Positions 1-19,887 of a DNA stretch of 50,605 nt are shown piece by piece (position 1 is the stretch's first letter; each line of letters starts with the position of its first letter). The notes under the pieces are model-generated. The model was not told the DNA's origin and did no database searches. It saw nothing but the letters and a program-made list of their open reading frames with translations. The stretch is from positions 1-50,605 of the forward strand of contig QHSA01000139.1 of NCBI GenBank assembly GCA_003220315.1, given 5' to 3'. A program made the position numbers and the translations under genes. This DNA comes from Candidatus Rokuibacteriota bacterium. Its GTDB lineage: Bacteria; Methylomirabilota; Methylomirabilia; Rokubacteriales; CSP1-6.

Positions 1-2
1 CG

Positions 3-596
3 ATGCGTCCCGCCCACTGGCTCCCCCCGGTGCTCTGGATGGGTGTCATCATGCTTCTGTCGACCGACACCGGCAGCGCGGCGCACACGGGCGAGCTCCT
101 CCTGCCCCTGCTCCACTGGCTCCTGCCCTGGGCATCGCCCGGCGACCTCGCCGCCATCCACGGACTCGTGCGCAAGGGGGCGCACCTCACCGAGTACGCG
201 ATCCTCGCCGCGCTCTGGTACCGCGCGTTCACGCGGGGCCGTCGGCTCACCCCGCCGACCGCCGGCTGGCTCGCGTTCGGGATCAGCCTGGCCTGGGCGA
301 CCCTCGACGAGTGGCATCAGGCGTTCCTGCCCTCCCGGACCAGCAGCGCGACGGACGTCGGGATCGACGGCGCGGGTGCCGCGGTCGCCCTCATCGTGGC
401 CTGCCGAGGCTGGCGCGCGGCCCTTGACGGCGCGACGATCGCCGTCCTGTGGCTCGCGTCGGCAGGTGGGGCCGTCGCGATCGCGATCAACGCCTGGGCG
501 GGCGTGCCCTCCGGCCCGCTCTGGGTCACCACGCCCGCCGCCGCGGTCGTGATGCTCGTGCGCCGTCGACTCCGCCGCCGCAAGCCCGGCGCGTAG
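3..596 (+). CDS. VanZ-like family membrane protein
   Basis: The 197-residue protein starts at the ATG two bases into the window. It has several hydrophobic segments and the VanZ-family pattern: a basic/His motif RKGAHLTEYAIL near residue 57 and DEWHQAFLPSRTSS followed by DVGIDGAGA near residues 101-125. VanZ-like proteins are small integral membrane proteins; the family is named after a teicoplanin-resistance protein, but the biochemical role of most members is unknown. The C-terminus ends in an arginine-rich tail (RRRLRRRK), probably cytoplasmic. A further upstream start cannot be excluded because the window begins here. The next gene is on the opposite strand and convergent, with 122 bases between them and no clear terminator. 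Confidence 0.85.
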   Translation: MRPAHWLPPVLWMGVIMLLSTDTGSAAHTGELLLPLLHWLLPWASPGDLAAIHGLVRKGAHLTEYAILAALWYRAFTRGRRLTPPTAGWLAFGISLAWATLDEWHQAFLPSRTSSATDVGIDGAGAAVALIVACRGWRAALDGATIAVLWLASAGGAVAIAINAWAGVPSGPLWVTTPAAAVVMLVRRRLRRRKPGA

Positions 597-718
597 GGCG
601 AGCGCGGGGCGGTATCTTCTGGGCGTTATCTCGACGCTGACCGGACGGACCGAGCTCGCGCTGAGAGTGGTAGCGTGGTCGAGGGCGCCCTCCCGCCCCG
701 GCCCGCTCGCGGCGCGCG

Positions 719-1621
719 TCAGACCTTGAGGCGCGGGTCGAGCGTGTCGCGCAGTCCGTCGCCGAACAGGTTGATCCCGAGCACCGTCACGAGAATGGCC
801 AGCCCGGGGAAGGTCGCGAGCCACCACGCCGTCGAGATGTAGACGCGCCCGTCCGCAAGCATCCCGCCCCAGGTCGGCGTCGGAGGCTGCACCCCGAGCC
901 CGAGAAAGGAGAGCGCCGACTCGATCACGATGACGCGCGCCATGTCGAGCGTGGCGACGACGAGCCACGGGGTGAACGCGTTGGGCAGGATGTGACGCAG
1001 GAGGATCCGGCCATCGCGACTCCCGAGGGCCTGCGCCGCCTGCACGAACTCCCGCTCGCGCAGCGAGAGGACCGCGCCGCGCACGACGCGGGCGTACACG
1101 ACCCAGCTCGAGACTCCGATGACGACGATGATGACGGGCAGGCTCGGTCCCAGGACACCGATCACGGCGATCGCCAGTAGGATGAACGGGAACGCGAGCT
1201 GGATGTCCGCGAGCCGCATGAGGACGTCGTCGGTGCGGCCGCCGAAGTAACCCGAGACGAGCCCGACGAGCATCCCGATGACCCCCGAGATCGCCACCGC
1301 CGCGACGCCGACCAGCAGGGCGGGGCGCGCGCCGAAGATCACGCGCGCCAGGAGGTCGCGCCCGAGGTGGTCTGTGCCGAGTACGTGCACGCGACCCGAC
1401 GGGTCCGGCGACCCCGGCGGCTTGAGGCGGTTGGTGATGTCCTGCTCGATCGGGTCCCAGGGGCTGAGCCATGGAGCCCCGAGCGCGGCGGCGAACACGA
1501 GCGCGACGACGACGAGACCGAACAGCGCCGTCCGGCGTCGGGCGAGCCGTCGGAAGAGCGTCAGCCACTCGCTCCGCGCGGCGCCCCGCTCGGCGGGGAT
1601 CGCGATCGTCGTAGCGGTCAT
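719..1621 (-). CDS. ABC transporter permease, DppC/OppC type
   Basis: The 300-residue protein has an N-terminal cytoplasmic stretch, a first membrane helix at about residues 33-50, the OppC-type N-terminal region, and a binding-protein-dependent permease domain. The loop reading EFVQAAQALGSRDGRILLRHILPN is the EAA motif that contacts the ATPase. GTDHLGRDLLARVIFGAR and SFLGLGVQPPTPTWG are typical of dipeptide/oligopeptide/nickel permeases. It should pair with the DppB-type permease just upstream in the same transcript. No binding protein or ATPase lies beside it. A 186-base gap holding a tandem repeat separates the two permease genes. The substrate cannot be read from the sequence. Confidence 0.93.
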   Translation of the reverse strand: MTATTIAIPAERGAARSEWLTLFRRLARRRTALFGLVVVALVFAAALGAPWLSPWDPIEQDITNRLKPPGSPDPSGRVHVLGTDHLGRDLLARVIFGARPALLVGVAAVAISGVIGMLVGLVSGYFGGRTDDVLMRLADIQLAFPFILLAIAVIGVLGPSLPVIIVVIGVSSWVVYARVVRGAVLSLREREFVQAAQALGSRDGRILLRHILPNAFTPWLVVATLDMARVIVIESALSFLGLGVQPPTPTWGGMLADGRVYISTAWWLATFPGLAILVTVLGINLFGDGLRDTLDPRLKV

Positions 1622-1626
1622 TGTAA

Positions 1627-1800
1627 CGAGGGCCGCGAGACCGGCGCCATCGGTGGGTGGCCTGCGACGAGGGGCGCCCCGGCTCCGGTCCCCATGTCGC
1701 TTCTCATTCCACCCGAGGGCCGCGAGACCGGCGCCATCGGTGGGTGGCCTGCGACGAGGGGCGCCCCGGCTCCGGTCTCTACGCCGCTTCTCACGCCAGC
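1627..1800 (+). repeat. Tandem repeat locus A, two units of 87 bp
   Basis: Two direct units begin at 1627 and 1714. Their first 64 bases (1627-1690 and 1714-1777) look identical; the remaining 23 differ at a few places. Each unit opens with CGAGGGCCGCGAGACCGG, carries the core GGTGGGTGGCCTG and contains the palindrome GGGGCGCCCC. The first unit ends in a segment reading CGCTTCTCATTCCACC. The core and the end segment recur at 18446-18662, and a shortened form recurs inside rlmD at 3662-3805. The locus fills almost all of the gap between the two permease genes. Near-inverted arms GACCGGCGCC and GGCTCCGGTC flank each core, so the unit could fold. No spacers are present, so it is not a CRISPR. 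Confidence 0.9.
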
Positions 1801-1807
1801 GGCGGCT

Positions 1808-2725
1808 TCATCGCAGACGGATCCGAGGGTCGAGGTACGTGTACAGCACGTCCACCGCCAGGTTCACGAGCACGAAGGTGCTGGAGAGCAAGAATACCGC
1901 CGCCTGCACCACGGGGTAATCGCGGTTGTAGATCGCCTGCACCGACAGGCGCCCGACGCCCGGCCACGCGAAGATCGTCTCGGTGATGACCGAGCCGCCG
2001 AGCAGCGTCCCGAGCTCGATGCCGACGATCGTCACGATCGGGATCGCCGCGTTCTTGAGGGCATGCTTCCAGACGACCGGGGGGTCGCCCACGCCCTTGG
2101 CCCGTGCCGTCCGGATGTAGTCCTGGCTCAGCACCTCGAGCATCCCCGACCGCGTGAGCCGCGTGATGCGGGCGGTCGTGAAGAGGCCAAGCGTGATCGC
2201 GGGCAGGATCAGGTGCCCGAGCCCGCCCCGCCCGGACGATGGCAGCAGGTTGAACTGCACCGAGAAGACGAGGATGAGCATGATCCCCAGCCAGAAGGTC
2301 GGCATCGATTGGCCGAGCAGGGCGACGACCGTGGAGATGTAGTCGAGCATCGTGTTGCGCCGGACAGCCGAGACGATGCCCGCCGGGATCGCGAGGACCA
2401 GCGCGACCACCAGGGCGGCGCCCGCCAGCTCGAACGTGGCCGGCATCCGCTCGACGACGAGGGTGAACGCGGACTCGCCGTGACGCACCGATTGGCCGAA
2501 ATCGCCGCGCAGCGCACCCGAGAGGAAGCGCCCGTACTGGACGACGAACGGATCGTTGAACCCCATCACCTGGCGGAAGCGCTGCACGTCCTCGGCCGAC
2601 GCGTCCGGCGGCAAGAGGACGAGCGCCGGGTCGCCGGTGAGGTGGAGGATGAAGAAGACGACGAACGAGACGCCGAAGAGGACGAGCAGCGACTGCAGGA
2701 GCCGGCGGGTGACGTACGTCTTCAT
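1808..2725 (-). CDS. ABC transporter permease, DppB/OppB type
   Basis: The 305-residue protein starts MKTYVTRRLLQSLLVLFGVS, the usual beginning of DppB-family permeases (an N-terminal helix after a short basic tail). It continues with GDPALVLLPPDAS, a family hallmark, and the EAA loop QDYIRTARAKGVGDPPVVWKHALKN. The end DVLYTYLDPRIRL is also typical. About six membrane helices are expected. The start is fixed by a 4-base overlap: the ATG at 2725-2723 overlaps the TGA of rlmD (ATGA), so translation is probably coupled to rlmD. Its partner is the DppC-type permease downstream. Confidence 0.93.
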   Translation of the reverse strand: MKTYVTRRLLQSLLVLFGVSFVVFFILHLTGDPALVLLPPDASAEDVQRFRQVMGFNDPFVVQYGRFLSGALRGDFGQSVRHGESAFTLVVERMPATFELAGAALVVALVLAIPAGIVSAVRRNTMLDYISTVVALLGQSMPTFWLGIMLILVFSVQFNLLPSSGRGGLGHLILPAITLGLFTTARITRLTRSGMLEVLSQDYIRTARAKGVGDPPVVWKHALKNAAIPIVTIVGIELGTLLGGSVITETIFAWPGVGRLSVQAIYNRDYPVVQAAVFLLSSTFVLVNLAVDVLYTYLDPRIRLR

Positions 2726-4233
2726 GGAGCCCGTCGGAGACGGGCCACCGCCTCGATGTGCGGCGTCTGGGGGAACATGTCCACCGGCTGCACCCACTCG
2801 AGCCGATAGCCCCCGGCGACGAGGGCGCCGAGGTCGCGGGCGAGCGTCGCGGGGTTGCACGAGACGTAGACGAGCCGGTCCGGCCCGAGCGCGGCGAGGG
2901 CGTGGAGGGCCTTCGGATGGAATCCGGCGCGCGGCGGGTCGGCGACGACGACCTCCGCCCGGACGCCGTCGCGCATCAGCGACGGAAGCACGTGGCGCAC
3001 CTCCCCCGCCAGAAAGGTGCAGTTCGCGATCCCGTTCGTCCGAGCGTTCCGCACGGCGTCGGCGACCGCCGCCGCCGCCACCTCGATCCCGTAGACCCGC
3101 CGACAGCGGCGCGCGAGCAGAAGACTGATCGCGCCCGTGCCGGCGTAGAGATCCAGCACGGTCTCGTCGCCCGAGAGGCTGCAGGCGCCCTCGACGACGG
3201 CGAAGAGTCGCTCGGCCTGGGCCGCGTTGGTCTGGAAGAACGAGTTGGCCGATACCTGGAAGCTGAGCCCCCCGAGCGACGCCCGGATGTGGTCCCGCCC
3301 GAGGAGCAGGTGCTCCTCCGTACCGACCGCCACGCTCGCCTTCTTGGCGTTCACGTTCAGCACGATGCTCGCCGTCGCGGGCACGCGGCGCGCGAGCTCG
3401 GCGGCCAGGGGAGCGAGCGCCTCCACGTCGGGCGTCGTCGCCACGATGTTCACCATCGCCTCGCCGGTGCGATGGCCCTCGCGCAAGGACACGAAGCGCA
3501 GGAGCCCCGCGTCCGCCTCGTAGACGGAGAGCGCGCGCGCCCGGATCTCGCGTCGGAACGCGTCGAGCAGAGCGTTCATCGCCTCCGACTGCAGCAGGCA
3601 CCGCTCGATGTCCAGGACGACGTCGTAACGGTCGGCCTGGTGCAGACCGACGACTGTTGGAGCGGGGTCCGCGAGGCCGCGACCCCCGTGGGTGGCCTGA
3701 GACAGGTGCGCGGGGTCCGCGAGGCCGCGACCCCCGTGGGTGGCCTGAGACAGGTGCGCGGGGTCCGCGAGGCCGCGACCCCCGTGGGTGGCCTGAGACA
3801 GGTGCGCGGGGCCGGCGCGGGACGTGATCGTGAACTCCATCTTGTTGCGGTACCCGTACGGCTCCGGAGCCGGAAGGATCGGTCGGAGCTCGAACGCCCC
3901 GAGACCGCCGATCCGCTCGAGGCAGTCGCGCACCTGCTTCTCCTTGAAGGCAAGCTGCGCAGGATAGGCGACGTGCTGGAGTCGACATCCGCCGCAGCGT
4001 CCGAAGTACGGGCAGGGCGGCTCGACCCGGTCGGGCGACGGCGTCTCGATCGACTCGATGACGGCGCGGCCGAACCGCGAGCGCGCGTCCACCAGCGTGG
4101 CGCGGACGCGGTCGCCGGGTACGGCGCCGCGCACGAATACGACGTAGCCGCTCACGCGCCCGACGCCCTCGCCACCGAACGCGAGGTCGTCGATGACGAG
4201 CTCCAGGATGTCTCCGCGCCGAGGTTTCGTCAT
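2722..4233 (-). CDS. rlmD: 23S rRNA (uracil-5-)-methyltransferase, RlmD/RumA type, with in-frame repeat insertion
   Basis: The 503-residue protein should methylate a uridine at C5 in 23S rRNA (U1939 in E. coli) using SAM. A TRAM RNA-binding domain spans residues 1-60. A 4Fe-4S site is built from C74, C80, C83 and C212. A Rossmann-type methyltransferase domain follows, with LDLYAGTGAISLL, a DPPRAGFHP motif and the catalytic cysteine in YVSCNPATLARDL. Residues 140-191 are three near-identical 16-residue repeats (ADPAHLSQATHGGRGL). From memory, E. coli RumA uses C74, C80, C83 and C162; here the first three match exactly and the fourth is 50 residues later, as expected for an added loop. The TRAM/RlmD subfamily is clear, but the exact target uridine is inferred. 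Confidence 0.92.
   Translation of the reverse strand: MTKPRRGDILELVIDDLAFGGEGVGRVSGYVVFVRGAVPGDRVRATLVDARSRFGRAVIESIETPSPDRVEPPCPYFGRCGGCRLQHVAYPAQLAFKEKQVRDCLERIGGLGAFELRPILPAPEPYGYRNKMEFTITSRAGPAHLSQATHGGRGLADPAHLSQATHGGRGLADPAHLSQATHGGRGLADPAPTVVGLHQADRYDVVLDIERCLLQSEAMNALLDAFRREIRARALSVYEADAGLLRFVSLREGHRTGEAMVNIVATTPDVEALAPLAAELARRVPATASIVLNVNAKKASVAVGTEEHLLLGRDHIRASLGGLSFQVSANSFFQTNAAQAERLFAVVEGACSLSGDETVLDLYAGTGAISLLLARRCRRVYGIEVAAAAVADAVRNARTNGIANCTFLAGEVRHVLPSLMRDGVRAEVVVADPPRAGFHPKALHALAALGPDRLVYVSCNPATLARDLGALVAGGYRLEWVQPVDMFPQTPHIEAVARLRRAP
3662..3805 (+). repeat. Tandem repeat locus B, three units of 48 bp inside rlmD
   Basis: Three direct units of 48 bp start at 3662, 3710 and 3758; a degenerate fourth start follows at 3806. 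Each begins GCGGGGTCCGCGAGG and carries GTGGGTGGCCTGAGACAGG. The same core occurs at 1627-1800 and 18446-18662, so B is a shortened version: 84-bp units minus a 36-bp module. The units lie antisense to rlmD, keep its frame and encode no stop in that frame. As read here they are nearly or fully identical to each other, suggesting recent duplication or ongoing homogenisation. Confidence 0.93.
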
Positions 4234-4243
4234 GACCGACGCC

Positions 4244-4249
4244 ACTATA
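4244..4249 (-). promoter_or_regulatory. Candidate -10 box for rlmD operon
   Basis: Read on the minus strand, TATAGT lies 10 bases before the rlmD ATG (4233). Transcription would start about 4 bases before the ATG, giving an almost leaderless message. No convincing -35 hexamer is visible. Confidence 0.4.
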
Positions 4250-4283
4250 GCACCTCGACCTCGCGGCTCTCGCGCCGACGGGG

Positions 4284-4289
4284 TATGAT
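4284..4289 (+). promoter_or_regulatory. Candidate -10 box for the DciA-like gene
   Basis: TATGAT lies 8 bases before the ATG at 4298, so the transcript would begin at or next to the start codon. No Shine-Dalgarno sequence precedes the ATG, which fits a leaderless message. The -35 region is poor. Confidence 0.4.
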
Positions 4290-4297
4290 ACTGATGC

Positions 4298-4768
4298 ATG
4301 AGAGTCGGAGCGCCGCGCGCCGTCGCAGATCTGCTCGTGACCGCCGTCCCCGAGCTCCGAGACCGCCTCGCCGAGCACCACGTCAGGCGCGCGTGGACCG
4401 CCCTCGTCGGCACCGACGTGGCGCGGCGGGCCCAGCCCAAGGGGCTCGTCGACGGCTGCCTCACGGTGGTCGTCGACAACTCCCCGTGGCTCCACGAGCT
4501 CACGCTCCGCGTCGAAGAGCTGACGGCGCGCCTCCACGAGCGGTTCCCCGCCGTCCGCGCGCTCCGCTTCACTCTCGGCAGTCTCGAGCCGGCGGCCCCC
4601 CCGGCGCCGCCGCCGCACGCGCGCTCCGCGACCCCGCTTCCGGCCGCCGACCGGCACGCGATCGACGCGGCGACCTCCGTGATCCCCGACCCGACCCTCG
4701 CCGCGGTCGCGCGGCGCCTGCTCACGAAGGCCTGGCAGGCCTCCGCGGAACGAGGGGCCGAGCGGTGA
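4298..4768 (+). CDS. DUF721 / DciA-like protein
   Basis: The 156-residue protein matches the DUF721 pattern at its N-terminal half: VRRAWTALVGTDVARRAQPKGLVDGCLTV and DNSPWLHELTLRVEELTARL near residues 29-90. DciA proteins of this family load or operate the replicative helicase DnaB in bacteria lacking DnaC/DnaI. The second half is Pro/Ala-rich and probably flexible, with a short helical end. The start ATG has no ribosome-binding site but sits just after a -10-like box. The TGA at 4766-4768 overlaps the GTG of the next gene (GTGA), so the two are translationally coupled. The family is well supported; the helicase role is inferred from the family. Confidence 0.8.
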   Translation: MRVGAPRAVADLLVTAVPELRDRLAEHHVRRAWTALVGTDVARRAQPKGLVDGCLTVVVDNSPWLHELTLRVEELTARLHERFPAVRALRFTLGSLEPAAPPAPPPHARSATPLPAADRHAIDAATSVIPDPTLAAVARRLLTKAWQASAERGAER

Positions 4769-6510
4769 CCCGTCGGCTGCTCGCCCGAACCGCAGTCCTC
4801 CTGGTCGGCGCGACGCTGGCCGCGTGCGCGGGGGCGGGCGTGACGCCCTCCGGCGTCTCGTCGCGGCGCGCGCCGCCGACGCAGGACAAGCGCGCCGAGG
4901 CGTACCACGAGTACGCGGTCGCCCAGATGGCCGCGCAGTCGGGGCGGTTCACCGAGGCGATCCCCGCGCTGCGCGAGGCCCTCAAGCGCGACCCGAGCTC
5001 GGCCTACCTCTGGATGATGCTCGCGCAGTGGCTCGGGCGCACCGACGCGGCCGACGAGGCGCTCGCCGCGGCGCGGCGCGCGGTCGAGATCGCGCCCGAC
5101 GACGTCCTCACCCACACGACGCTCGCCGAGCTCCTCCGCACACAAAACAAGTGGGCCGAGGCCCGGGCGGAGCTCGAGAGGGTCATCGCGCTGAACCCGG
5201 ATGCGGAGGAACCCTACCTCACGCTCGCGCGCTACGAGGTTGAGCAGAAGGCGTACGATCGCGCACGCGGCGTGCTGCTCCGTCTGATCGCGAAGTCCCC
5301 CCGGCTCCCGCAGGCCCACTTCCTGCTCGGGCGGCTCGCCATCGAGACGGAGGCGTGGGACGACGCGATCGCCGAGCTCCAGAAGGCCGTCGAGCTCGAT
5401 CCCGACCACGATGGCGCGTGGACCGCCCTCGGCTATGTCTACGAGACGCACCGTAAGCCCGACGAGGCGGTCGAGGTCTACCGGCACGCCGCCAAGGCGA
5501 ACCCCGACAACCCCGCGTTCGTCGAGCGGCTCGGCGACCTGCTGATCCGGCTCGGTCGCTTCCAGGAGGCGCAGACGGAGATCGAGGCGCTCGCCGAGGT
5601 CGCGCCGCGGGACGCGCGCGTCTGGATGAAGCTCGGCGCGGTCTTCTACGAGCAGAAGCAGTGGGACCAGGCGGCCGACGCCTTCCGGCGCGCCGTCACC
5701 CTCGAGCCGACGAACCTCCGCGCGCGGTACTTCCTCGCCACCACGTATATGGACGCGGGGAAGGACACCGAGGCCCGCGCCGAGCTCGAGCGCATCCTCC
5801 GGGTCGATCCGCGCTCGATCGACGCCCGCGTCCAGCTCGGGTTCCTGTACGGGCGCGCCAAGCGGTATGACGAGGCGATCGCGGTTCTCCGCGACGCCGT
5901 CAACCTCGAGCCGAAGCGGTCCGAGCTCTTCCTCTATCTCGGCACCGCGTACTTTCGCGGCAAGCAGTACGACCGCGCCATCGAGACCCTCCAGGAGGGC
6001 CTCGGCCTCGACGAGAAGAACAAGGACCTCCACTTCCAGCTCGGGGTCGTCTTGGAGAAGCAGGCGAAGTTCGACGACGCCGTCCGCGCGTTCCGGCAGG
6101 TGATCGCGCTCGACCCCAAGCACGCCGAGGCGTACAACTACGTCGGCTACATGTACGCCGAGCGGGGGCAGAACCTCGACGAAGCGATCCAGCTCATCAA
6201 CCAGGCGCTCGCGATCGAGCCGGAGAACGGCTACTTCATCGACAGCCTCGGTTGGGCGTACTACCAGAAGGGGCGTTATCTCGAGGCCCTGAAGGAGCTC
6301 AAGCGCGCCGTTGAGAAGGCGAAGGAGCCCGACCCCGTGATCTACGATCACCTCGGCGACGCGTATCTGAAAAACGGCCTCGAGGCCGAGGCGCTCGCCG
6401 CGTGGGAGAAGGCCCTGCAGCTCGACCCGGCCGCCGAAGGGGTCAAGAAGAAGATCGACGACCTCAAGGGCGGGCGCCGGGCCAAGAGTGGCTCGAAGGC
6501 GTCTCAGTAG
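4765..6510 (+). CDS. TPR-repeat lipoprotein
   Basis: The start is the GTG at 4765, inside the stop of the previous gene, with GAGGGG upstream. The 581-residue product begins with a signal peptide ending in the lipobox LAAC (Cys about residue 21), so it is probably a lipoprotein facing the periplasm. The rest, from about residue 40 to 560, is an almost unbroken array of tetratricopeptide repeats (for example PDEAVEVYRHAAKANPDNPAF and KRYDEAIAVLRDAVNLEPKR), roughly 14 units. It ends in a Lys-rich tail. Such proteins are protein-interaction scaffolds; partners are not known. The next lipoprotein gene overlaps its end by 23 bases. Confidence 0.9.
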   Translation: MTRRLLARTAVLLVGATLAACAGAGVTPSGVSSRRAPPTQDKRAEAYHEYAVAQMAAQSGRFTEAIPALREALKRDPSSAYLWMMLAQWLGRTDAADEALAAARRAVEIAPDDVLTHTTLAELLRTQNKWAEARAELERVIALNPDAEEPYLTLARYEVEQKAYDRARGVLLRLIAKSPRLPQAHFLLGRLAIETEAWDDAIAELQKAVELDPDHDGAWTALGYVYETHRKPDEAVEVYRHAAKANPDNPAFVERLGDLLIRLGRFQEAQTEIEALAEVAPRDARVWMKLGAVFYEQKQWDQAADAFRRAVTLEPTNLRARYFLATTYMDAGKDTEARAELERILRVDPRSIDARVQLGFLYGRAKRYDEAIAVLRDAVNLEPKRSELFLYLGTAYFRGKQYDRAIETLQEGLGLDEKNKDLHFQLGVVLEKQAKFDDAVRAFRQVIALDPKHAEAYNYVGYMYAERGQNLDEAIQLINQALAIEPENGYFIDSLGWAYYQKGRYLEALKELKRAVEKAKEPDPVIYDHLGDAYLKNGLEAEALAAWEKALQLDPAAEGVKKKIDDLKGGRRAKSGSKASQ

Positions 6511-7243
6511 CCTCCTCTGTCTGCTGGTGCTCTACGGCGGGTGCGCGACGGCGCCCGCGCGCCAGCCCGTCCCGGACGACGCGCGCCGCGCGCTCGAGCT
6601 CCTCGACGCGCGCTGGCACGACTTCACCGACCTCCGCACCCTCGCCGACATCGTCCTCACGCGCGGCCGGGAGAGCCACCAACTCACCGGCGCCCTCCTC
6701 GTCAAGGGCCCGGACTCGGTGCGCTTCGAGGCCCTGTCGCCGCTCGGTCAGCCCCTCCTCCTCGTCACCGTCCACGAGGGCCGTCTCACCGCGTACGACG
6801 TGGTGAAGAACGAGGTGCTCACTGGACCGGCCACGGCGGCGACGATCGTCCGCGTCCTCGGCCTGCCACTCGATGCCGACTCGCTCGTCGCAGTGCTCGC
6901 CGGGCGCCCCATGCCGCCGAGGGACCTGCGCGCGGCCGAGCTCGAGCCTGCCGACGGCCTCGGCCCTTCGCTGACCCTCGTCGGCGCTGACGGGCGCCAG
7001 CGCGTCTGGCTGGACCTCGACACCGGCGAGGTTCAGCAACTCCAAGTCGATGGCGGGCGCTTCCCGGTCACGATCACCTTCCGGACCGACGGGGAGGCGC
7101 CGGCAGGATTCGACCTCCGGTCCGAGGCCGCCCGCGTGACCGGATCAGTGACCTACCGAAACCAGGTCGTCGGGAGCGGGATCGACCCCGAGCGGTTCAC
7201 GCTTACGCTCCCCAAAGGGGCGAAAACAAAGACCATCCGTTGA
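6488..7243 (+). CDS. LolB/DUF4292-like outer-membrane lipoprotein
   Basis: The 251-residue protein starts at a GTG overlapping the end of the TPR gene. A signal peptide ends in the lipobox YGGC (Cys about residue 19). After a linker, the fold signature is that of the LolB/LppX-type half-barrel seen in DUF4292: LRTLADIVLTRGRESHQLTGALLVKGPDSVRFEALSPLGQPLL-like alternating strands at residues 48-95. LolB receives lipoproteins at the outer membrane, but DUF4292 proteins are distant and their role is not proven. The position between a TPR lipoprotein and ispE is an arrangement I associate with Deltaproteobacteria-like and NC10 genomes. Confidence 0.72.
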   Translation: MARRRLSSLLCLLVLYGGCATAPARQPVPDDARRALELLDARWHDFTDLRTLADIVLTRGRESHQLTGALLVKGPDSVRFEALSPLGQPLLLVTVHEGRLTAYDVVKNEVLTGPATAATIVRVLGLPLDADSLVAVLAGRPMPPRDLRAAELEPADGLGPSLTLVGADGRQRVWLDLDTGEVQQLQVDGGRFPVTITFRTDGEAPAGFDLRSEAARVTGSVTYRNQVVGSGIDPERFTLTLPKGAKTKTIR

Positions 7244-7258
7244 AATCCTGTTGGGCAC

Positions 7259-8176
7259 GTGCTACGCTTCGGTGCCTTGTCGAAGCGGTCGGGGGTCACC
7301 CGTCGGCTCGTGCTCAGCGCCTCGGCCAAGATCAATCTGGCTCTGGAGGTTCTGGGCAAGCGGGACGACGGTTATCACGAAGTCGCCACGGTCATGCAGG
7401 CTGTGGACCTCTCCGACCGGCTGGTGATCGAGGACTCCGAGATCTTGGAAGTGCGCACCAGCGCGCCCGACGTTCCGAGCGATGGAAGCAATCTGGTCGC
7501 GCGGGCGGCGCACGCGTTGCGGGAAGCGGCGGCGGTGAGCCGGGGGGCCCGAATCAGGCTCGACAAGCGGATCCCGGTGGCGGCCGGGCTCGGCGGCGGC
7601 TCGGCGGACGCCGCCGCGACGCTCGTGGGCTTGAGCCGTCTCTGGGGGCTCCGCTGGTCGGTGGCCCGGCTCGACGAGCTCGCCGTGACGCTCGGCACGG
7701 ACGTGCCGTTCTTCCTCCGTGGCGGCGCCGTGCTCGGGACCGGACGCGGCGAGCGCATCGAGCCCGTCGTGGGCATGGCCCTGCCGCTCGTGCTGGTCAA
7801 CCCGGGGGTGGGCGCGAGCACGCCCGCGATCTATGGGGGCGTGACCCCTGCGATGTATTCTGACGGCAGCCACGTCCGTCAGATGGTGGCGGCGCTCCGG
7901 AGCCGCCGCCCGGCCCGGGTCGCCGCGAGCCTCTACAACGCGCTCGAGCGCGTCGCGGCCGCGGCGCACGGGCAGGTGGCGCAGATGGAGGCCGCGCTCC
8001 TGGCGGCGGGCGCGCTCGGCGCGGCCATGTCGGGCAGCGGGCTCACCGTGTTCGGCGTCGCCCGCTCGTTCGACCACGCGCGGCAGATCCGCGCGCGGGT
8101 CGCACGGCGCTCCTGGAGGTGCTGGGCGGTCCGCGCGATTCGAGGTCCGGCGATCCGGATGCGACGGGAACGCTGA
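7259..8176 (+). CDS. ispE: 4-diphosphocytidyl-2-C-methyl-D-erythritol kinase
   Basis: The 305-residue GHMP kinase phosphorylates CDP-methylerythritol in the MEP pathway of isoprenoid synthesis. Visible marks are ASAKINLALEVLGKRDDGYHE near the N-terminus (substrate-binding Lys), the ATP-binding glycine motif PVAAGLGGGSADAA near residue 110, the GTDVPFFLRGG catalytic Asp near residue 150, and a C-terminal GAAMSGSGLTVFG. The GTG at 7259 is used as the start; an inner GTG just before LSASAKI would shorten it by about 15 residues. It follows the lipoprotein gene by 15 bases and precedes tRNA-Gln and prs. Confidence 0.93.
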   Translation: MLRFGALSKRSGVTRRLVLSASAKINLALEVLGKRDDGYHEVATVMQAVDLSDRLVIEDSEILEVRTSAPDVPSDGSNLVARAAHALREAAAVSRGARIRLDKRIPVAAGLGGGSADAAATLVGLSRLWGLRWSVARLDELAVTLGTDVPFFLRGGAVLGTGRGERIEPVVGMALPLVLVNPGVGASTPAIYGGVTPAMYSDGSHVRQMVAALRSRRPARVAASLYNALERVAAAAHGQVAQMEAALLAAGALGAAMSGSGLTVFGVARSFDHARQIRARVARRSWRCWAVRAIRGPAIRMRRER

Positions 8177-8190
8177 GGAGCAACGAACGA

Positions 8191-8265
8191 TGGGGCGTGG
8201 CCAAGTGGCAAGGCGCGGGACTTTGGATCCCGTATTCGGAGGTTCGAATCCTCCCGCCCCAACCA
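8191..8265 (+). tRNA. tRNA-Gln (anticodon TTG)
   Basis: The cloverleaf can be drawn by hand: acceptor TGGGGCG/CGCCCCA, anticodon stem CGGGA/TCCCG with loop CTTTGGA (anticodon TTG), T stem GGAGG/CCTCC with loop TTCGAAT. The genomic CCA at 8263-8265 is encoded. The gene sits between ispE and prs. Confidence 0.96.
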
Positions 8266-8284
8266 CACCTGGAGCGAGGCGCCG

Positions 8285-9223
8285 ATGGCCTACGAGCTGA
8301 AGCTCTTGACGGGGACCGCGAACCGGCCGCTCGCCGAGGAGATCGGGCAGTACCTGCGGCTGCCGCTGGCGGACGCGGAGGTATCACGCTTCTCGGACGG
8401 CGAGGTGTACGTGCAGATCAACGAGAACGTCCGCGGCGCGGACGTGTTCGTGATCCAGCCGACGTGCCCGCCCGTGAACGACACGCTCATGGAGCTGCTC
8501 ATCATGATCGACGCGCTGAAGCGCGCCTCGGCCCGCCGCATCACGGCGGTCCTGCCCTACTATGGCTACGCGCGCCAGGACCGCAAGGTCCAGCCGAGGG
8601 TCCCGATCTCGGCGAAGCTGGTCGCCGACCTGCTCGAGGCGGCCGGAATCGATCGCGTGCTGGCGCTCGACCTCCACGCGGGACAGATCCAGGGCTTCTT
8701 CCGGGTCCCGGTGGACCACCTCTTCGCCGCGCCGGTCATCATCGACTATCTCGGCAAAAAGGAGCTGCGGGAGCCCGTCATCGTCGCGCCCGATGCGGGC
8801 GGCGTCGAGCGCGCCCGCGCGATCGCCAAGCGTCTCACGGCCAGCCTCGCGATCATCGACAAGCGGCGCGAGGGTCCGAACTCGGCGGTGGCGATGCACC
8901 TGATCGGCGACGTCCGCGGCCGGGACGCCGTCGTGATCGACGACATGATCGACACCGCCGGCACACTCATCCAGGCCGTGAGCGCGCTCGCCCGCGAGGG
9001 CGCGCGGCGCATCCTCGCCTGCGGCGTCCACCCGGTCCTGTCTGGTCCAGCGGTCGACCGCATCATCAAGTCCCCGCTGGAAGAGGTCGTCGTCACCAAC
9101 TCGATCCCGGTAGCCTCCGACAAACGCGCCGCGCACGTCACCGTGCTGACCGTGGCGCCGCTGCTGGGCGAGGCGATCCGCCGCATCCACGACGAAGAGT
9201 CCGTCTCGACGCTGTTCGTGTGA
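8285..9223 (+). CDS. prs: Ribose-phosphate pyrophosphokinase
   Basis: The 312-residue enzyme makes PRPP from ribose 5-phosphate and ATP, feeding nucleotide, histidine and tryptophan synthesis. It is full length for class I Prs. Seen in order: LKLLTGTANRPLAEEI at the N-terminus, RFSDGEVYVQINENVRG near residue 37, the flexible-loop region YARQDRKVQPRVPIS near residue 97, the divalent-metal motif DLHAGQIQGFF near residue 130, and the PRPP-binding loop VVIDDMIDTAGT near residue 218. A strong GGAGCGAGG precedes the ATG. The prs-rplY-pth order is a widely conserved bacterial block. Confidence 0.97.
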   Translation: MAYELKLLTGTANRPLAEEIGQYLRLPLADAEVSRFSDGEVYVQINENVRGADVFVIQPTCPPVNDTLMELLIMIDALKRASARRITAVLPYYGYARQDRKVQPRVPISAKLVADLLEAAGIDRVLALDLHAGQIQGFFRVPVDHLFAAPVIIDYLGKKELREPVIVAPDAGGVERARAIAKRLTASLAIIDKRREGPNSAVAMHLIGDVRGRDAVVIDDMIDTAGTLIQAVSALAREGARRILACGVHPVLSGPAVDRIIKSPLEEVVVTNSIPVASDKRAAHVTVLTVAPLLGEAIRRIHDEESVSTLFV

Positions 9224-9245
9224 TCTTCCCGGAGGGAGTCTGACG

Positions 9246-9962
9246 ATGGAGATGCAAGAGCTGACGATCAAGCGACGCGAGGCGACCGGCAAAGCGGTCG
9301 CCAAGCGTCTGCGCCGCGCGGGAGAGGTGCCCGCGATCCTCTACGGCGGCGCCAAGCCCGAGCCGGTCCTGGTGGACCCCAAGGCCGTGCTCAAGATGAT
9401 TCACGGGCGCGAGGGCACGACCCAGCTTCTCACGCTCAAGTTCGACGGCGAGGCGGGCGGCGGCAGGCGGATGGCGATCATCCGCGACTTACAATTCGAC
9501 CCGGTGACCGAGCACCTGCTCCACGTGGACCTGCAAGAAGTGTCCGGAGACCGCACGATCACGGTGCGCGTCGCGGTCCGTCCGGTGGGCGAGCCCGCGG
9601 GCGTCAAGGAGCAGAAGGGCATCCTCAACATCGTGGTCCACGAGCTCGAGGTCTCGTGCCTGCCGACGGCGATCCCCGAGCGGATCGACGCCGACGTCTC
9701 GGCCCTGATGATCGGCGACGTGCTGACCGTCGCGCAGCTCCAGGCGCCCCAGGGCGTCCGGATCCTGACCCAGCCGGGGCAGGCGGTCGCCACCGTCGTG
9801 CCGCCGATGGCCGAGGAGGCGCCCGTGGCGGCGGCCCCCGCGGCGGCGGTGGTCACCGAGCCGGAGGTGCTCACGGAGCGCAAGCCGAAGGAAGTGGAGG
9901 CCCCGGCGCCCGAAGAAGGCAAGAAGCCGAAGAAGCCAGAGAAGGCGGAGAAAGAGAAGTAG
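9246..9962 (+). CDS. rplY: 50S ribosomal protein L25 (general stress form Ctc/TL5)
   Basis: The 238-residue protein has the long form of L25: an N-terminal 5S-rRNA-binding barrel (KRLRRAGEVPAILYGGAKP near residues 19-38) followed by the Ctc C-terminal domain, and a Lys/Pro/Glu-rich tail from about residue 195 that looks disordered. Short L25 proteins have only the first domain. GGAGGGAG lies before the ATG. It sits between prs and pth as in many bacteria. Confidence 0.95.
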   Translation: MEMQELTIKRREATGKAVAKRLRRAGEVPAILYGGAKPEPVLVDPKAVLKMIHGREGTTQLLTLKFDGEAGGGRRMAIIRDLQFDPVTEHLLHVDLQEVSGDRTITVRVAVRPVGEPAGVKEQKGILNIVVHELEVSCLPTAIPERIDADVSALMIGDVLTVAQLQAPQGVRILTQPGQAVATVVPPMAEEAPVAAAPAAAVVTEPEVLTERKPKEVEAPAPEEGKKPKKPEKAEKEK

Positions 9963-9977
9963 CGGAGCCGGACCCGC

Positions 9978-10502
9978 GTGGCCCACGCCGTGGTGGGGCT
10001 CGGGAATCCCGGAGCGGAGTACCGGGACACCCGCCACAACGTGGGCCAGCGGGTCCTCGATCTCCTCGCCCAGATGCTCAAGCGCCCCTGGCACCGCGAG
10101 GGCCAGGCCCTCACGGCCCACGGCCAGTGGCGGGGCGAGACGGTCCACCTCGTGAAGCCCCTCGCGTTCATGAACGTGTGCGGTCCCGTCGTCGCCCGAG
10201 CGCTCCGGCACCTCGGCGTCGGACCGGCCGACCTCGTCCTGGTCTACGACGACATCGACCTCCCCCTCGGCGCGGTCCGCACGCGCATGAAGGGGAGCCA
10301 CGGCGGTCACAACGGCGTGCGCTCGGTCATCGAGGCGCTCGGCACCTCGGAGATCCGGCGCGTCAAGGTGGGTATCGGGCGTCCCGACCGGAAGGAGGAC
10401 GTCGTCGACCACGTGCTCACCGGGTTCGAGCAGGACGAGCTCCCCGTGATCGACGCCGCCGTCGCCGAGGCGGCGGAGCGCGTGCTCGCCCTCCTCGGAT
10501 AG
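9978..10502 (+). CDS. pth: Peptidyl-tRNA hydrolase
   Basis: The 174-residue enzyme frees tRNA from peptidyl-tRNA released by stalled ribosomes. It starts at GTG with AVVGLGNPGAEYRDTRHNVG, which holds the conserved Asn and the catalytic His; FMNVCGPVV near residue 57 and DDIDLPLGAVR near residue 91 carry the other active-site Asn and Asp, and KGSHGGHNGVRS follows. It is slightly shorter than typical (about 190) because the C-terminal tail is trimmed. A gap of 15 bases separates it from rplY. Confidence 0.95.
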   Translation: MAHAVVGLGNPGAEYRDTRHNVGQRVLDLLAQMLKRPWHREGQALTAHGQWRGETVHLVKPLAFMNVCGPVVARALRHLGVGPADLVLVYDDIDLPLGAVRTRMKGSHGGHNGVRSVIEALGTSEIRRVKVGIGRPDRKEDVVDHVLTGFEQDELPVIDAAVAEAAERVLALLG

Positions 10503-10521
10503 CACGCCCGGGCGCGCGGCG

Positions 10522-11766
10522 CTAACGAAAGAAGATCAGCGTCACCACGGCGAAGAGCGGCAGGAGCACCACGCCGCTGTAGAGCATGTACCCGAAGAAG
10601 CTCGGCATCCTCACGCCCTGCTCCTCGGCGATCGACTTCACCATGAAGTTGGGCGCGTTGCCGATGTACGAGTTGGCGCCCATCGCGACCGCGCCCACGC
10701 TGATCGCCGCCAGGATCGTGTGGGGAACGTCCACCACCTCGCGCGCGAGGCCCAGGCCCTGACCCAGCGCGAGGAACGTCAGGTAGGTCGGGGCGTTGTC
10801 GAGAAAGGACGAGAGCGCGCCGGTCGCCCAGAAGAACTGCCACGGCGCGCGCACGCCGAGCTCGCCACCCCGGAGCCGCAGGAGCTCGAGCGCGGGGATC
10901 ATCGTGAGGAAGATGCCGAAGAAGACAACGGCGACCTCCACGATCGGGGAGGCCGTGAAGCCGTTCGCGCGCCGGATCTCGCGCGGCGTCCGCCAGAGCG
11001 AGGCGGCCGCCAGCGCCACCAAGACGGCTTCCCGCGCGGGCGCGCCGAGGAACGCGACCGCGAGCACCACGCCGGCGAGGCCGAGGCCGTTCAGCGCGCC
11101 GCGCACCCGGAGCGGCTCGACCCGCGCCCGGTCGCGGCGGAGCGCCGCCAGGGGCTCGCGCGTGTAGAGGAGCGTGTCCCACACGAAGTACGTCACGAGC
11201 AGCACGCCGACCATCAGGAGCCAGTGCGGCCAGAGCCGGAAGGTCCAGCCGAAGGGCACGCCCTGCAGGTAGCCGAGGAACAGCGGTGGATCGCCGAGCG
11301 GTGTCAGCATGCCACCGATGTTCGAGACGAGGAAGATGAAGAAGATGACCGTGTGCGTGACGCGCGCGCGCTCGCGATTGGTCTGCAGGAGTGCGCGGAC
11401 CAGGAGCATCGAGGCGCCGGTCGTGCCGATGAAGGACGCGAGCACGGAGCCGATCGCGAGGAACGTGGAGTTCACCCGCGGCGTCGCGAGGAGGTCGCCG
11501 CGCATGAGGATCCCGCCGGAGATCACGTAGAGGGCGGCGAGGAGGACGATGAACGAGGCGTACTCCTCCGCCATGTGGACGAGGGCCGACGGCTCGCGGA
11601 CGAGATACAGGACGAGCACCGGCAGCCCGAGCACGATCGAGACCAGGAGCTTGTTGCGGTTCGACTCCCACCAGCGCGGCGCGGCGAGGGGAAGGACGGC
11701 GATACCGAGAAGGATGACGACGAACGGGACGACGGTGTAGACGGGCAAGAGGGCGGCGGTCGTCAC
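10522..11766 (-). CDS. Na+/H+ antiporter-like membrane protein (NhaD/ArsB type)
   Basis: The 414-residue protein has about ten membrane segments. Two motifs place it in the ion-transporter superfamily with NhaD, ArsB and citrate carriers: NIGGMLTPLGDPPLFLGYLQ near residue 150 and SSFLDNAPTYLTFLALGQG near residue 320, the two symmetric re-entrant signatures. MGANSYIGNAPNFMVKSIAEE near residue 370 is also family-like. It probably exchanges Na+ for H+; the substrate is inferred. It is convergent with pth (19 bases apart) and divergent from rpsU. Confidence 0.85.
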   Translation of the reverse strand: MTTAALLPVYTVVPFVVILLGIAVLPLAAPRWWESNRNKLLVSIVLGLPVLVLYLVREPSALVHMAEEYASFIVLLAALYVISGGILMRGDLLATPRVNSTFLAIGSVLASFIGTTGASMLLVRALLQTNRERARVTHTVIFFIFLVSNIGGMLTPLGDPPLFLGYLQGVPFGWTFRLWPHWLLMVGVLLVTYFVWDTLLYTREPLAALRRDRARVEPLRVRGALNGLGLAGVVLAVAFLGAPAREAVLVALAAASLWRTPREIRRANGFTASPIVEVAVVFFGIFLTMIPALELLRLRGGELGVRAPWQFFWATGALSSFLDNAPTYLTFLALGQGLGLAREVVDVPHTILAAISVGAVAMGANSYIGNAPNFMVKSIAEEQGVRMPSFFGYMLYSGVVLLPLFAVVTLIFFR

Positions 11767-11825
11767 GGCCTGGCGTCTCCCCGGACGGGATTGTCAGCCC
11801 GCCCAGTGTAGCAGCCGCCGCTCGA

Positions 11826-11854
11826 TTGCTGGGCGGTGGGGCGCATGATATATA
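11826..11854 (+). promoter_or_regulatory. Sigma-70-type promoter of the rpsU operon
   Basis: TTGCTG at 11826-11831 and TATATA at 11849-11854 are separated by exactly 17 bases, with TGA just before the -10. This gives a leader of about 36 bases to the rpsU GTG. It is one of the best-looking promoters in the window and heads the macromolecular-synthesis operon. Confidence 0.65.
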
Positions 11855-11896
11855 GTTGATGTTTATCCGGTGCGGGTGTCTGGAGGGGGGAGCGGA

Positions 11897-12091
11897 GTGA
11901 CCAAGGTCATCATAGAGCCCGACGAGTCCTTCGAGAGCGCGCTCAAGCGGTTCAAGAAGCAGTGCGAGAAGGCCGGGCTCCTGTCGGAGTTCAAGAAGCG
12001 ACAGCACTACGAGAAGCCCAGCGTCCGGCGCAAGCGGAAGGCCCTCGCCGCCCGCAAGAAAGCCAAGCGTCGAGAACGGATGGCCGATTAG
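11897..12091 (+). CDS. rpsU: 30S ribosomal protein S21
   Basis: The 64-residue protein matches bS21: it begins [21 protein letters not shown], contains [20 protein letters not shown], and ends in a Lys/Arg-rich tail ([17 protein letters not shown]). The GTG at 11897 is chosen over an upstream in-frame GTG (11870) because the strong GGAGGGGGGAG lies right before it and the protein then has the normal length. S21 helps the 30S subunit bind messages at initiation. It is the first gene of a rpsU-mutS2-dnaG-rpoD unit. Confidence 0.95.
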
Positions 12092-12210
12092 CCGTAACAC
12101 TCCTGGACGTACCGCCGGCGCTCCCGTCACCCCGGACGGGAGCGAATGAAGCCACGCGCCTCTCTCGCAGGCCACCGACGATGTGCGGCGGGCTCGCGGA
12201 CCCCGGTACG

Positions 12211-14622
12211 ATGAGGCGATCGGTGGAGGCAGGACACACCTGGGAGCGGTCCACCGAATGGAACGCGGTGCGCGCGCTCCTGGCGCATGAAGCGCAGACC
12301 GAAATGGGTCGTGAGCTGGTGGCGACGGCCGAGCCGCTCACCGATCCCCGCACGGTCCACACCGAGCTCCGACTGACGCGCCAGGCGCGTCTGGCGCGCG
12401 CGACGTCCGGTCCCCTGCCGCTCGACAGCTTCCCTGACGTCCGGCAAGTGCTCGATCGCTGCCGGACGGTCGGGAGCGTCCTCGACGGCGCCGAGCTGGC
12501 CGGGCTGGTGCCGGCCCTTCTGGCAACCCCCAGGCTCGCCGCGTATGGTAAATCGATCGGGACCGTTGCGGCCGAAGTGGCGGCGATCATCGGCTCGCTC
12601 CCGCGCTTCCCCGAGCTCGCCGACCGACTCGGCCAGTCCCTCGACGCCGACGGCGCGGTCACCGACGACGCCAGTCCCCGGATCCGTCATCTTCGCCGCG
12701 AGATCCGCGAGCGGCGGCGCCGGGTCGCCGCCGAGCTCGAGCGCGCCTTCCAGGAGGGAGACGCCGAGCGGCTCTTCGCTGACCGGTACGTCACGATCCG
12801 CCACGGGCGGTACGTCCTCCCCGTCCGGGCGGAGGCGCGCGGTCGCGTGCGGGGCATCGTCCACGACCGCTCGCAGAGCGGCCAGACCCTCTTCGTCGAA
12901 CCCGAGGCCGTCGTCGAGGCCAACAACGACCTCGTCCAGGCGGTCGGCGAGGAAGAGCACGAGACCGCCCGCATCCTGGCCGAGCTGACCGACGCGGTCC
13001 GCGACCGGATCGACGACCTCGAGCTCCTGGTCACGCGCGTCGGCCGCCTCGACTGGATCTTCGCCCGGGGAGGGATCGCGGATCGGATGGAGGCGATCGA
13101 GCCCGAGATCGACCCGGGGCGCACCCTGTCGCTCAAGAGCGCCCGCCATCCCCTACTCCTCGCCCAGAGCTGGACGGACCCCGAGCGCCCGGTCGTGCCG
13201 GTCGACATCGAGCTCTCCGCCGAGCGCCCCCTGCTCCTGATCACGGGCCCGAACGCGGGCGGCAAGACGATCGCGCTGAAGACGGCGGCGCTGCTCGCGC
13301 TGATGGCCCAGACGGGCTGCCACATCCCCGCCGCGGAGGGCTCGCGGCTGCCGATCGTCGCCGATCTGCACGCCATCGTCGGCGATGACCAGTCGGTCGC
13401 GGAGAACCTCTCGACCTTCTCGGCGTTCGTGCAGCAGATCCGCCGCGTGCTCGACCGGGCGGGCGAGCGCTCGCTCGTGCTCCTCGACGAGCTGGGCGCG
13501 GGGACCGACCCCGATGAGGGAGCCGCGCTCGCCCAGGCGATTGTCGAGGAGCTCGCCGAGCGGGGAGCGCTCGTGATCGCGACGACCCACCTCGAGCCGC
13601 TCAAGGTCTTCGCCTCCACGCACCCCCGCGCGCGCAACGCCTCGGTCGAGTTCGACACGACGACGCTCGCCCCGACCTTCCGCCTCCGCTACGATCAGCC
13701 CGGCCAGAGCTACGCGCTCACCATCGCGGCGCGGCTCGGCCTCGCACCCGAGCTGATCGCGCGGGCCCAGGCGCATCGCTCCGAGCACGCCGCGCGGCTC
13801 TCGGACCTCCTGACGGCGCTCGACGCCCACGCACGCACCGAGGCCGAGCGCGCGCGCGAGATCGAGCGGGCCCGGACGGACGCCGCCGTGCAGCTCGCCA
13901 AGGCGCGCGAGACTGCAAAGACGGCCGAGGGGAAGGCGAAGACGATCGTCGAGCGGGCGAAGGCGGAGGCGATGGCGCTCCTGACCGACGTTCGCCGAAC
14001 CGTCGCCGCCGAGTGGGATCGGCTCAAGCGCTCCGAGCGCACGCGCCGCACGCTCGAGGAAGGCCGCCAGCGCCTGCATGAGGCCGCGGCTCGCGTCGAG
14101 GCGGTCGCCGCAGCCCCGGCCCAGGCGCCCGCCGAGGGCCCGGTGGCGCTCGAGCCGGGCCAGACGGTGGCGGCGGAGCACCTCGGGATCCGGGGAGAGC
14201 TGCTGACCATCGTCGGGAGCACCGCGACGGTCAGGTCCGGTTCGCTGACAGTCCGCGTGCCCCTTCAGTCGCTCCGCCCAGTAGGAGGTGACGGCGAGAG
14301 TGAGCGGGGGGCGGGGGCGCCCTCCGTGCGAGTGTCGTTCCGAGCAAAGGAGCCTGCCCCGCCCCCCCGCGAAATCGTCCCCGAGCTGCTGCTGCTGGGG
14401 CGAACGACCGACGAGGCCCGCGACGCCGTCGAGAAGTACCTCGACGACGCGTTCCTCGCGGGCCTGCCGAGCGTTCGACTGATCCACGGCAAGGGCTCGG
14501 GCGCCCTTCGCAAGGCGGTGCGCGACCTCCTCACCGCCCACCCGCTCGTCGACTCCTTTCGGGACGGTGAGTCGGGCGAAGGCGGCACCGGGGCCACCGT
14601 GGCCGCGTTGAAGGTGAGCTGA
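12211..14622 (+). CDS. mutS2: Endonuclease MutS2 (MutS-type ATPase with Smr domain)
   Basis: The product is 803 residues from the ATG at 12211 (an in-frame ATG at 12181 adds ten). It lacks the MutS mismatch-recognition N-domain. In order: a core/clamp region to about 330, the Walker A GPNAGGKT (about 345), Walker B LVLLDELGAGTDP (about 421), a coiled-coil rich in Ala/Glu/Arg at 510-640, a KOW-like region, and a C-terminal Smr nuclease domain with LIHGKGSG (about 760). The usual LDLRG-type Smr motif reads LLLLGRTTDEA here. MutS2 proteins suppress recombination or rescue collided ribosomes, depending on species. The dnaG ATG follows its stop by two bases. Confidence 0.93.
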   Translation: MRRSVEAGHTWERSTEWNAVRALLAHEAQTEMGRELVATAEPLTDPRTVHTELRLTRQARLARATSGPLPLDSFPDVRQVLDRCRTVGSVLDGAELAGLVPALLATPRLAAYGKSIGTVAAEVAAIIGSLPRFPELADRLGQSLDADGAVTDDASPRIRHLRREIRERRRRVAAELERAFQEGDAERLFADRYVTIRHGRYVLPVRAEARGRVRGIVHDRSQSGQTLFVEPEAVVEANNDLVQAVGEEEHETARILAELTDAVRDRIDDLELLVTRVGRLDWIFARGGIADRMEAIEPEIDPGRTLSLKSARHPLLLAQSWTDPERPVVPVDIELSAERPLLLITGPNAGGKTIALKTAALLALMAQTGCHIPAAEGSRLPIVADLHAIVGDDQSVAENLSTFSAFVQQIRRVLDRAGERSLVLLDELGAGTDPDEGAALAQAIVEELAERGALVIATTHLEPLKVFASTHPRARNASVEFDTTTLAPTFRLRYDQPGQSYALTIAARLGLAPELIARAQAHRSEHAARLSDLLTALDAHARTEAERAREIERARTDAAVQLAKARETAKTAEGKAKTIVERAKAEAMALLTDVRRTVAAEWDRLKRSERTRRTLEEGRQRLHEAAARVEAVAAAPAQAPAEGPVALEPGQTVAAEHLGIRGELLTIVGSTATVRSGSLTVRVPLQSLRPVGGDGESERGAGAPSVRVSFRAKEPAPPPREIVPELLLLGRTTDEARDAVEKYLDDAFLAGLPSVRLIHGKGSGALRKAVRDLLTAHPLVDSFRDGESGEGGTGATVAALKVS

Positions 14623-14624
14623 GC

Positions 14625-18342: not shown

Positions 18343-18361
18343 CCGGGTATGATGGCGCCGA

Positions 18362-18433
18362 GGGCCCATAGCTCAATGGCAGAGCAGCCGGCTCATAACC
18401 GGTTAGATCTTGGTTCGAGTCCAGGTGGGCCCA
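18362..18433 (+). tRNA. tRNA with CAT anticodon (elongator Met, or Ile2)
   Basis: The cloverleaf closes with acceptor GGGCCCA/TGGGCCC and discriminator A, anticodon arm GCCGG-CTCATAA-CCGGT and T arm CTTGG/CCAGG. The G1-C72 pair argues against initiator tRNA. A CAT anticodon can also be the isoleucine tRNA modified by TilS (lysidine); the sequence alone does not separate these. CCA is not fully encoded (CCG follows the discriminator). Confidence 0.92.
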
Positions 18434-18445
18434 CCGTTGTAGCGG

Positions 18446-18662
18446 GGGCCGCGAGTCCGGCCCACTCGGTGGGTGGCCTGAGGCAAGGTGCGGTCTGGCT
18501 CCGTCCAGCACGTCGCTTCTCATTCCACCGGGCCGCGAGTCCGGCCCACTCGGTGGGTGGCCTAAGGCGAGGTGCGGCCTGGCTCCGTCCAGCACGTCGC
18601 TTCTCATTCCACCGGGCCGCGAGGCCGGCCGCCTCGGTGGGTGGCCTGAGGCGAGGTGCGGT
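18446..18662 (+). repeat. Tandem repeat locus C, about 2.6 units of 84 bp
   Basis: Units begin at 18446, 18530 and 18614; the third is cut short near 18662. Each starts GGGCCGCGAG and contains the core TCGGTGGGTGGCCTGAGGC, then a module TGGCTCCGTCCAGCACGTCG followed by CTTCTCATTCCACC. The end module and the core match locus A (1627-1800); the core matches locus B (3662-3805). The array sits 12 bases after a tRNA and before the zinc-ribbon gene. CCCAC-TCG-GTGGG forms a perfect small hairpin in units 1 and 2. Confidence 0.92.
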
Positions 18663-18701
18663 CTCTCGGGTGGCTCCGGTCCGCGGACAGTCGGAGGGGG
18701 T

Positions 18702-19876: not shown

Positions 19877-19887
19877 GCGGGCGCGCG

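Follow-up and report, generated by a model that had tools for sequence, protein, structure and literature searches.

Why does the gene for a conserved rRNA methyltransferase carry a perfect tandem repeat in frame, and where did the repeat come from? The window, by which we mean the whole stretch of 50,605 nucleotides that was analysed, comes from a soil organism within Candidatus Rokubacteria (genome G000); all assemblies used here are metagenomic. The host gene and its array are as follows.

2722 to 4233, minus strand: RlmD gene (23S rRNA m5U1939 methyltransferase), the array host, an ORF of 503 amino acids
3657 to 3811, plus strand: intragenic array in RlmD, three 48-bp units (TRF, and profile matches at 3657-3710, 3711-3758 and 3759-3806)

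The TRF run on the window returned 3662-3811 with a period of 48, 3.1 copies, 100% matches and zero indels. The RlmD ORF is open through the whole array and reads ...TSRAGPAHLSQATHGGRGLADPAHLSQATHGGRGLADPAHLSQATHGGRGLADPAPTV..., with the first copy starting AGP instead of ADP; the insert amounts to 48 residues. The identity of the host is given by NCBIfam model TIGR00479 (score 390.8 versus a cut-off of 183.6) and by PDB matches to spRlmCD and RumA in both sequence and fold, and the TRAM domain, the four Fe-S cysteines and the methyltransferase core are all present. Cys74, 80, 83 and 212 are invariant in an alignment of 31 RlmD proteins. The AlphaFold2 model built from that alignment has a mean pLDDT of 87.6, and residues 141-189, flanked by strands at 131-138 and 193-198, are the sole stretch with pLDDT below 50. 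The insert is therefore predicted to be a disordered loop between two conserved strands that leaves the fold intact. These results bear out a sequence-only reading of this DNA, which had described three in-frame units gained between two conserved strands with the frame kept (48 bp being a multiple of three) and the Fe-S cysteines untouched, and had expected a structure prediction to place the repeat as a loop. Its label of "essential-type" for the enzyme was too strong, since rlmD/rumA is dispensable in E. coli.

Searches of the 4.26 Mb genome showed that the unit is one of a family of dispersed repeats. With no more than one mismatch allowed, the core GGTGGGTGGCCTG finds 161 genome matches, compared with 18 for a reversed-pattern control, and the core GTGGGTGGCCTGAG has 138, compared with 2. 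The family thus comprises about 140-160 core matches, with an element of roughly 65-100 bp. A 98-position profile found 150 copies forming 88 arrays of one to five units in 443 kb, which consist of the window and stretches of its own genome around pattern hits and were selected by those hits, so that densities in them are not genome averages. Read along the genes, the unit is TGA-AGAGCGACATGCGGAACGGAGCC...CAGGCCACCCACCG...CCCCGCTACAA-TGA. The plus strand of the RlmD array is antisense to RlmD, the same relation to the gene as in intercistronic copies. Besides the RlmD array, three further arrays of the family lie in the window and are listed here with the genes they adjoin.

719 to 1621, minus strand: downstream permease gene of Opp/Dpp C type, starting at the ATG of the element end
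1618 to 1798, plus strand: intercistronic array, a pair of 87-bp units flanked by ABC permease genes, whose end supplies the downstream ATG at 1619-1621
1808 to 2725, minus strand: upstream permease gene of Opp2B/NikB type, whose start overlaps the RlmD end by 4 nt
12145 to 12214, minus strand: single copy at the mutS2 start, whose end supplies the start codon (12211)
12211 to 14622, plus strand: mutS2, started by the element (TIGR01069, 751.7 bits)
18435 to 18682, plus strand: three-unit array adjoining tRNA-Met (TRF and profile)

At the permease junction the coupling chain is complete: the TGA of the upstream permease gene overlaps the ATG of a 7-codon frame, the TGA of this frame overlaps the GTG of a frame running through both 87-bp units, and the TGA of the two-unit frame overlaps the downstream permease ATG (1619-1621). 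The array at 18435-18682 abuts the 3' end of the tRNA-Met gene (18362-18435) and starts no protein, a non-coding exception to the rule described next.

Junctions were examined over all arrays, with genes called by a home-made hexamer-based caller. The family lies mostly between co-directional genes and in one orientation: among 78 arrays outside genes, 63 are antisense to both neighbours, 9 are sense and 6 are of other or undetermined type (p = 4e-11 for 63 versus 9). Read along the genes, the last unit ends CCCCGCTACAATGA. The array end coincides with NTGA in 39 of the 88 arrays and is without it in the other 49; in 38 of those 39 an ORF of 80 codons or more begins at the start codon. Ten downstream proteins were tested (SecF, RuvA, PheT, Era, GatC, L23, PurD, NuoM, NuoH and MutS2), and in most of them the model match begins at or near the first residue, which indicates that the gene has its start codon in the element end. 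At these arrays the downstream gene takes its start codon from the element, within an NTGA stop/start overlap (-4 nt). The frame that ends at the TGA is depleted of stops, with 8 over the 39 arrays versus 26 and 54 in the other two frames and about 29 in shuffled sequences. This coupled frame is stop-free in 32 of the 39 arrays versus 19.9 expected, some excess of open frames being expected from base composition alone. The upstream stop is TGA in 35 of the 39, versus 70% of genes in general (p = 0.004). Since the -4 overlap is the commonest co-directional spacing here (57 of 294), targets for such an arrangement abound. We also considered whether the terminal TACAAT of the element is a -10 box, and dropped this reading as a promoter because the sequence overlaps the start codon itself.

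The strong orientation bias, together with a GC-rich and partly self-complementary sequence, would also suit regulatory RNA structures (attenuators, terminators or processing sites) to which the overlap with start codons is incidental. We regard this as unlikely. RNAalifold over 68 copies gave just a 3-bp consensus stem, and an Rfam search of window positions 1-20000 returned only tRNAs and sub-threshold hits; furthermore, neither the precise NTGA overlap nor the depletion of stops in one frame fits such a role.

We consider it probable, at roughly 0.8, that the RlmD array is a copy, inside a gene and in frame, of a small interspersed repeat that is non-autonomous and normally occupies the NTGA overlap of translationally coupled operon genes. 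At such a junction one end of the element would preserve the upstream stop. At the other end, the last A of the element and the TGA after it would make ATGA and restart the downstream gene, and the short open frame inside the element would pass ribosomes along. Copies at coupled junctions would then cost little. They would occasionally be tolerated as in-frame protein loops as well, because the GC-rich units have few stops. On this reading ribosomes would couple through the element.

Filled and empty sites in relatives are consistent with insertion at these overlaps. The same-genus genomes are G001 (13_2_20CM_69_15_1), G002 (AR20) and G003 (AR15). Between secD and secF the element is present in G000 (3 hits) and G002 (2 hits), and in most other relatives the two genes overlap by 4 nt or lie a few bases apart. 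Between ruvC and ruvA it is present in G000 and G003, while a -4 NTGA overlap is found in G001, G002 and nearly all other relatives. Because most relatives have the bare 4-nt overlap, the copies at both junctions look like insertions flanked by TGA. The permease junction is empty in G027 (CAGATGAGCGTC) and filled in its congener G006, where it reads CGATGA-(element)-CAATGAGCG. A 4-bp ATGA target duplication was dropped in favour of TGA, as many empty ruvA sites are GTGA and filled 3' ends are ATGA. The simplest reading would be TGA on both sides with the A added by the element, in which a 3-bp duplication and microhomology look alike. The element probably spreads by transposition with TGA as a target. 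Unit number differs between orthologous arrays, at secF as in RlmD. In G003 a few extra bases lie between the secD stop and ATGATC (L307), perhaps left behind by an element that was lost; G006 likewise has a short gap there.

A short, dispersed and often clustered repeat of this kind, with GTAG beside a GC-rich and partly palindromic stretch at one end, recalls REP/BIME elements, and the family might accordingly be a palindromic element moved by a Y1 (RAYT) transposase. We find this very unlikely: PF01797 has no match in G000-G003, although the same search finds it in relatives and controls, the 68 copies share almost no consensus stem-loop, and the GTAG is merely the complement of the CTAC that precedes the start codon ATG. 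The likeness to REP/BIME and RAYT systems is limited to short, often clustered repeats dispersed outside genes; the lack of a conserved stem-loop and of a Y1 match in the genus, and the location at start codons, set the family apart. We found no mobilising enzyme for it.

How did a repeat of gene junctions come to lie inside RlmD? Its copy there is without NTGA ends, without the 5' part of the unit and away from any start codon. The stretch from NKMEFT to RYD has 75 residues in the RlmD of the window. Outside the genus nearly all relatives have 22-29; longer stretches occur in GWC2_70_16 (L158; 36), AR4 (L163; 52) and GWA2_70_23 (G011/L160; 99) alone. In AR4 and GWC2_70_16 the same loop has inserts of about 27 and 12 residues. 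Within the genus the loop holds three units in G000, four in G002 and one diverged unit each in G001 and G003; among the other genera examined, none carries this repeat family there. Orthologs with other unit counts or none had been named beforehand as a check on recent insertion, and both kinds are found. In a tree of RlmD built without the loop, the four genus members group together (support 0.987) and G000 pairs with G002 (0.995). Taken with the unit counts, this would place about 15 codons of the element in the genus ancestor and the growth of the array in the G000/G002 line. The three units of G000 are identical and carry variants absent from G002, which points to recent homogenisation of the array in G000. 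The orthologs compared show a history in which one partial unit would have been present by the genus ancestor, followed by 48-bp tandem amplification and homogenisation. The in-frame gain proposed in the sequence-only reading thus stands, while entry of the whole array at once does not.

Retention of the insert in all four genus members and its amplification in the G000/G002 clade could mean that the loop was an adaptive gain for RlmD and persists because of its function, such as the binding of RNA or protein by the repeat. This seems very unlikely for a stretch that is predicted to be disordered, that varies freely from one species to another in sequence, length and unit number, and whose units also occur between genes and in unrelated proteins. 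In addition, the same loop holds one unrelated insert in G011 and another in AR4, which indicates that the place is permissive. The loop is probably close to neutral. That the array is a local minisatellite, born by slippage in a GC-rich loop and related to nothing else, would agree with identical units that vary in number between species, but is extremely unlikely given single diverged units in G001 and G003 and about 150 other copies in the genome, one of them at a distance of 2 kb, between the following pair of genes in the cluster. These genome-wide copies refute slippage as the origin of the RlmD unit; it is the likely cause of the later amplification of the array.

RlmD is among about nine in-frame intragenic copies. 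The other eight Pfam-matched ORFs that span a copy are those of HolB, an EamA transporter, an acyltransferase, PrpF, GlnE, hydantoinase A, a HemN-like protein and a GAF protein; in-frame insertion was checked against orthologs for RlmD and HolB, and the other seven are Pfam-matched spanning ORFs only. The insert in HolB (DNA polymerase III delta-prime) is found in G000 and G002 and is absent at that place in most other aligned genomes. Unrelated extra residues lie nearby in the HolB of G017, G019 and some distant genomes. Intragenic copies use both orientations and several frames. We found no support for a special design of the unit for insertion into proteins: its openness in six frames is not above that of shuffled sequences (3.9 versus 4.2 open frames), and a shortage of stops is seen just in the frame coupled at NTGA junctions. 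Tolerance inside proteins is thus explained by base composition.

Two known systems come close to this family. Mycobacterial MIRUs, which are apparently mobile, insert at start codons, with an internal ORF coupled at -4 nt (PMC12548453); they measure 40-100 bp and occupy 41 locations in M. tuberculosis H37Rv (PMC2734929). The Rokubacteria family resembles them in consisting of short dispersed units, often in tandem and in variable number, that lie in operons, are oriented with the genes, have an internal ORF at -4 nt to the downstream gene and are apparently mobile (PMC12548453, PMC2734929). It differs in having more copies than 41 loci, in its non-mycobacterial host, in also entering conserved proteins in frame, and in being one of several unrelated families within one bacterial family. 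Insertion at DTGA sites was reportedly proposed in the original MIRU paper. RPEs of Rickettsia are in-frame inserts in conserved protein genes whose protein is retained (PMC10969869), a likeness already raised in the sequence-only reading. It holds for dispersed repeats lying in frame inside conserved genes with the protein retained; it fails for the palindrome, since the Rokubacteria family has no conserved one, and MIRUs are as near a precedent. Further differences from RPEs are its main niche at NTGA overlaps, its tandem amplification, and the several frames and both orientations of its copies in proteins. By architecture, then, the family resembles MIRUs with an RPE-like side habit, a likeness that implies no descent from either. 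In the literature we found nothing on such repeats in Rokubacteria and no paper using the term "MIRU-like".

The same habit was seen in families of unrelated sequence. G011 has a family of 62-66 bp with the core GGGCGAAGAGGCCCAACC (87 matches versus 2 for the control), copies of which (L365-L394; for example L371, G011:C49, about 23992-24075) often end in NTGA at the starts of long ORFs. Two units of it fill the permease junction in G011, and the insert in the RlmD loop of G011 (L370) is made partly of one unit. A third unrelated family, GAGCGGGCGGGCGCTCGAGCGCCCGGGCGCCCGCGAGTCCAAATGA, is found in G009 (L395-L411; 17 matches versus 2), and many of its copies end exactly at the downstream ATGA start of long ORFs. 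The G011 and G009 families were judged on the listed loci and are less fully tested than the first. Three NTGA families have thus been seen, and two of them have entered the same RlmD loop. We consider it an evenly balanced question whether Rokubacteria hold several sequence-unrelated, TGA-flanked families that share one trick (NTGA insertion, a new start codon, an open frame and sometimes in-frame protein loops) and either evolved independently or are served by one mobilising enzyme. MIRUs underlie strain typing in tuberculosis, yet neither their mode of movement nor their restriction to mycobacteria is settled. The repeats described here are a second and larger set of MIRU type, found in an uncultured phylum, in which occupied and unoccupied sites can be read off from one species to another and unrelated families seem to have a target in common. 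With such a set, comparison of genomes can put to the test the target rule and the direction of insertion and can guide the search for a mobilising enzyme. The set is also an example of how elements of this kind spill over into proteins as in-frame loops, DNA polymerase III delta-prime included.

Core matches of the first family number 41-54 in the same-genus genomes, 94 in G006, 29 in G010, 13 in G018 and 11 in G013, and are near background in the rest of the family. G006, which belongs to another genus (g4), nearly matches the genome of the window in copies, and G027, of the same genus as G006, has no element at the permease junction; such a patchy distribution could reflect recent spread or transfer.
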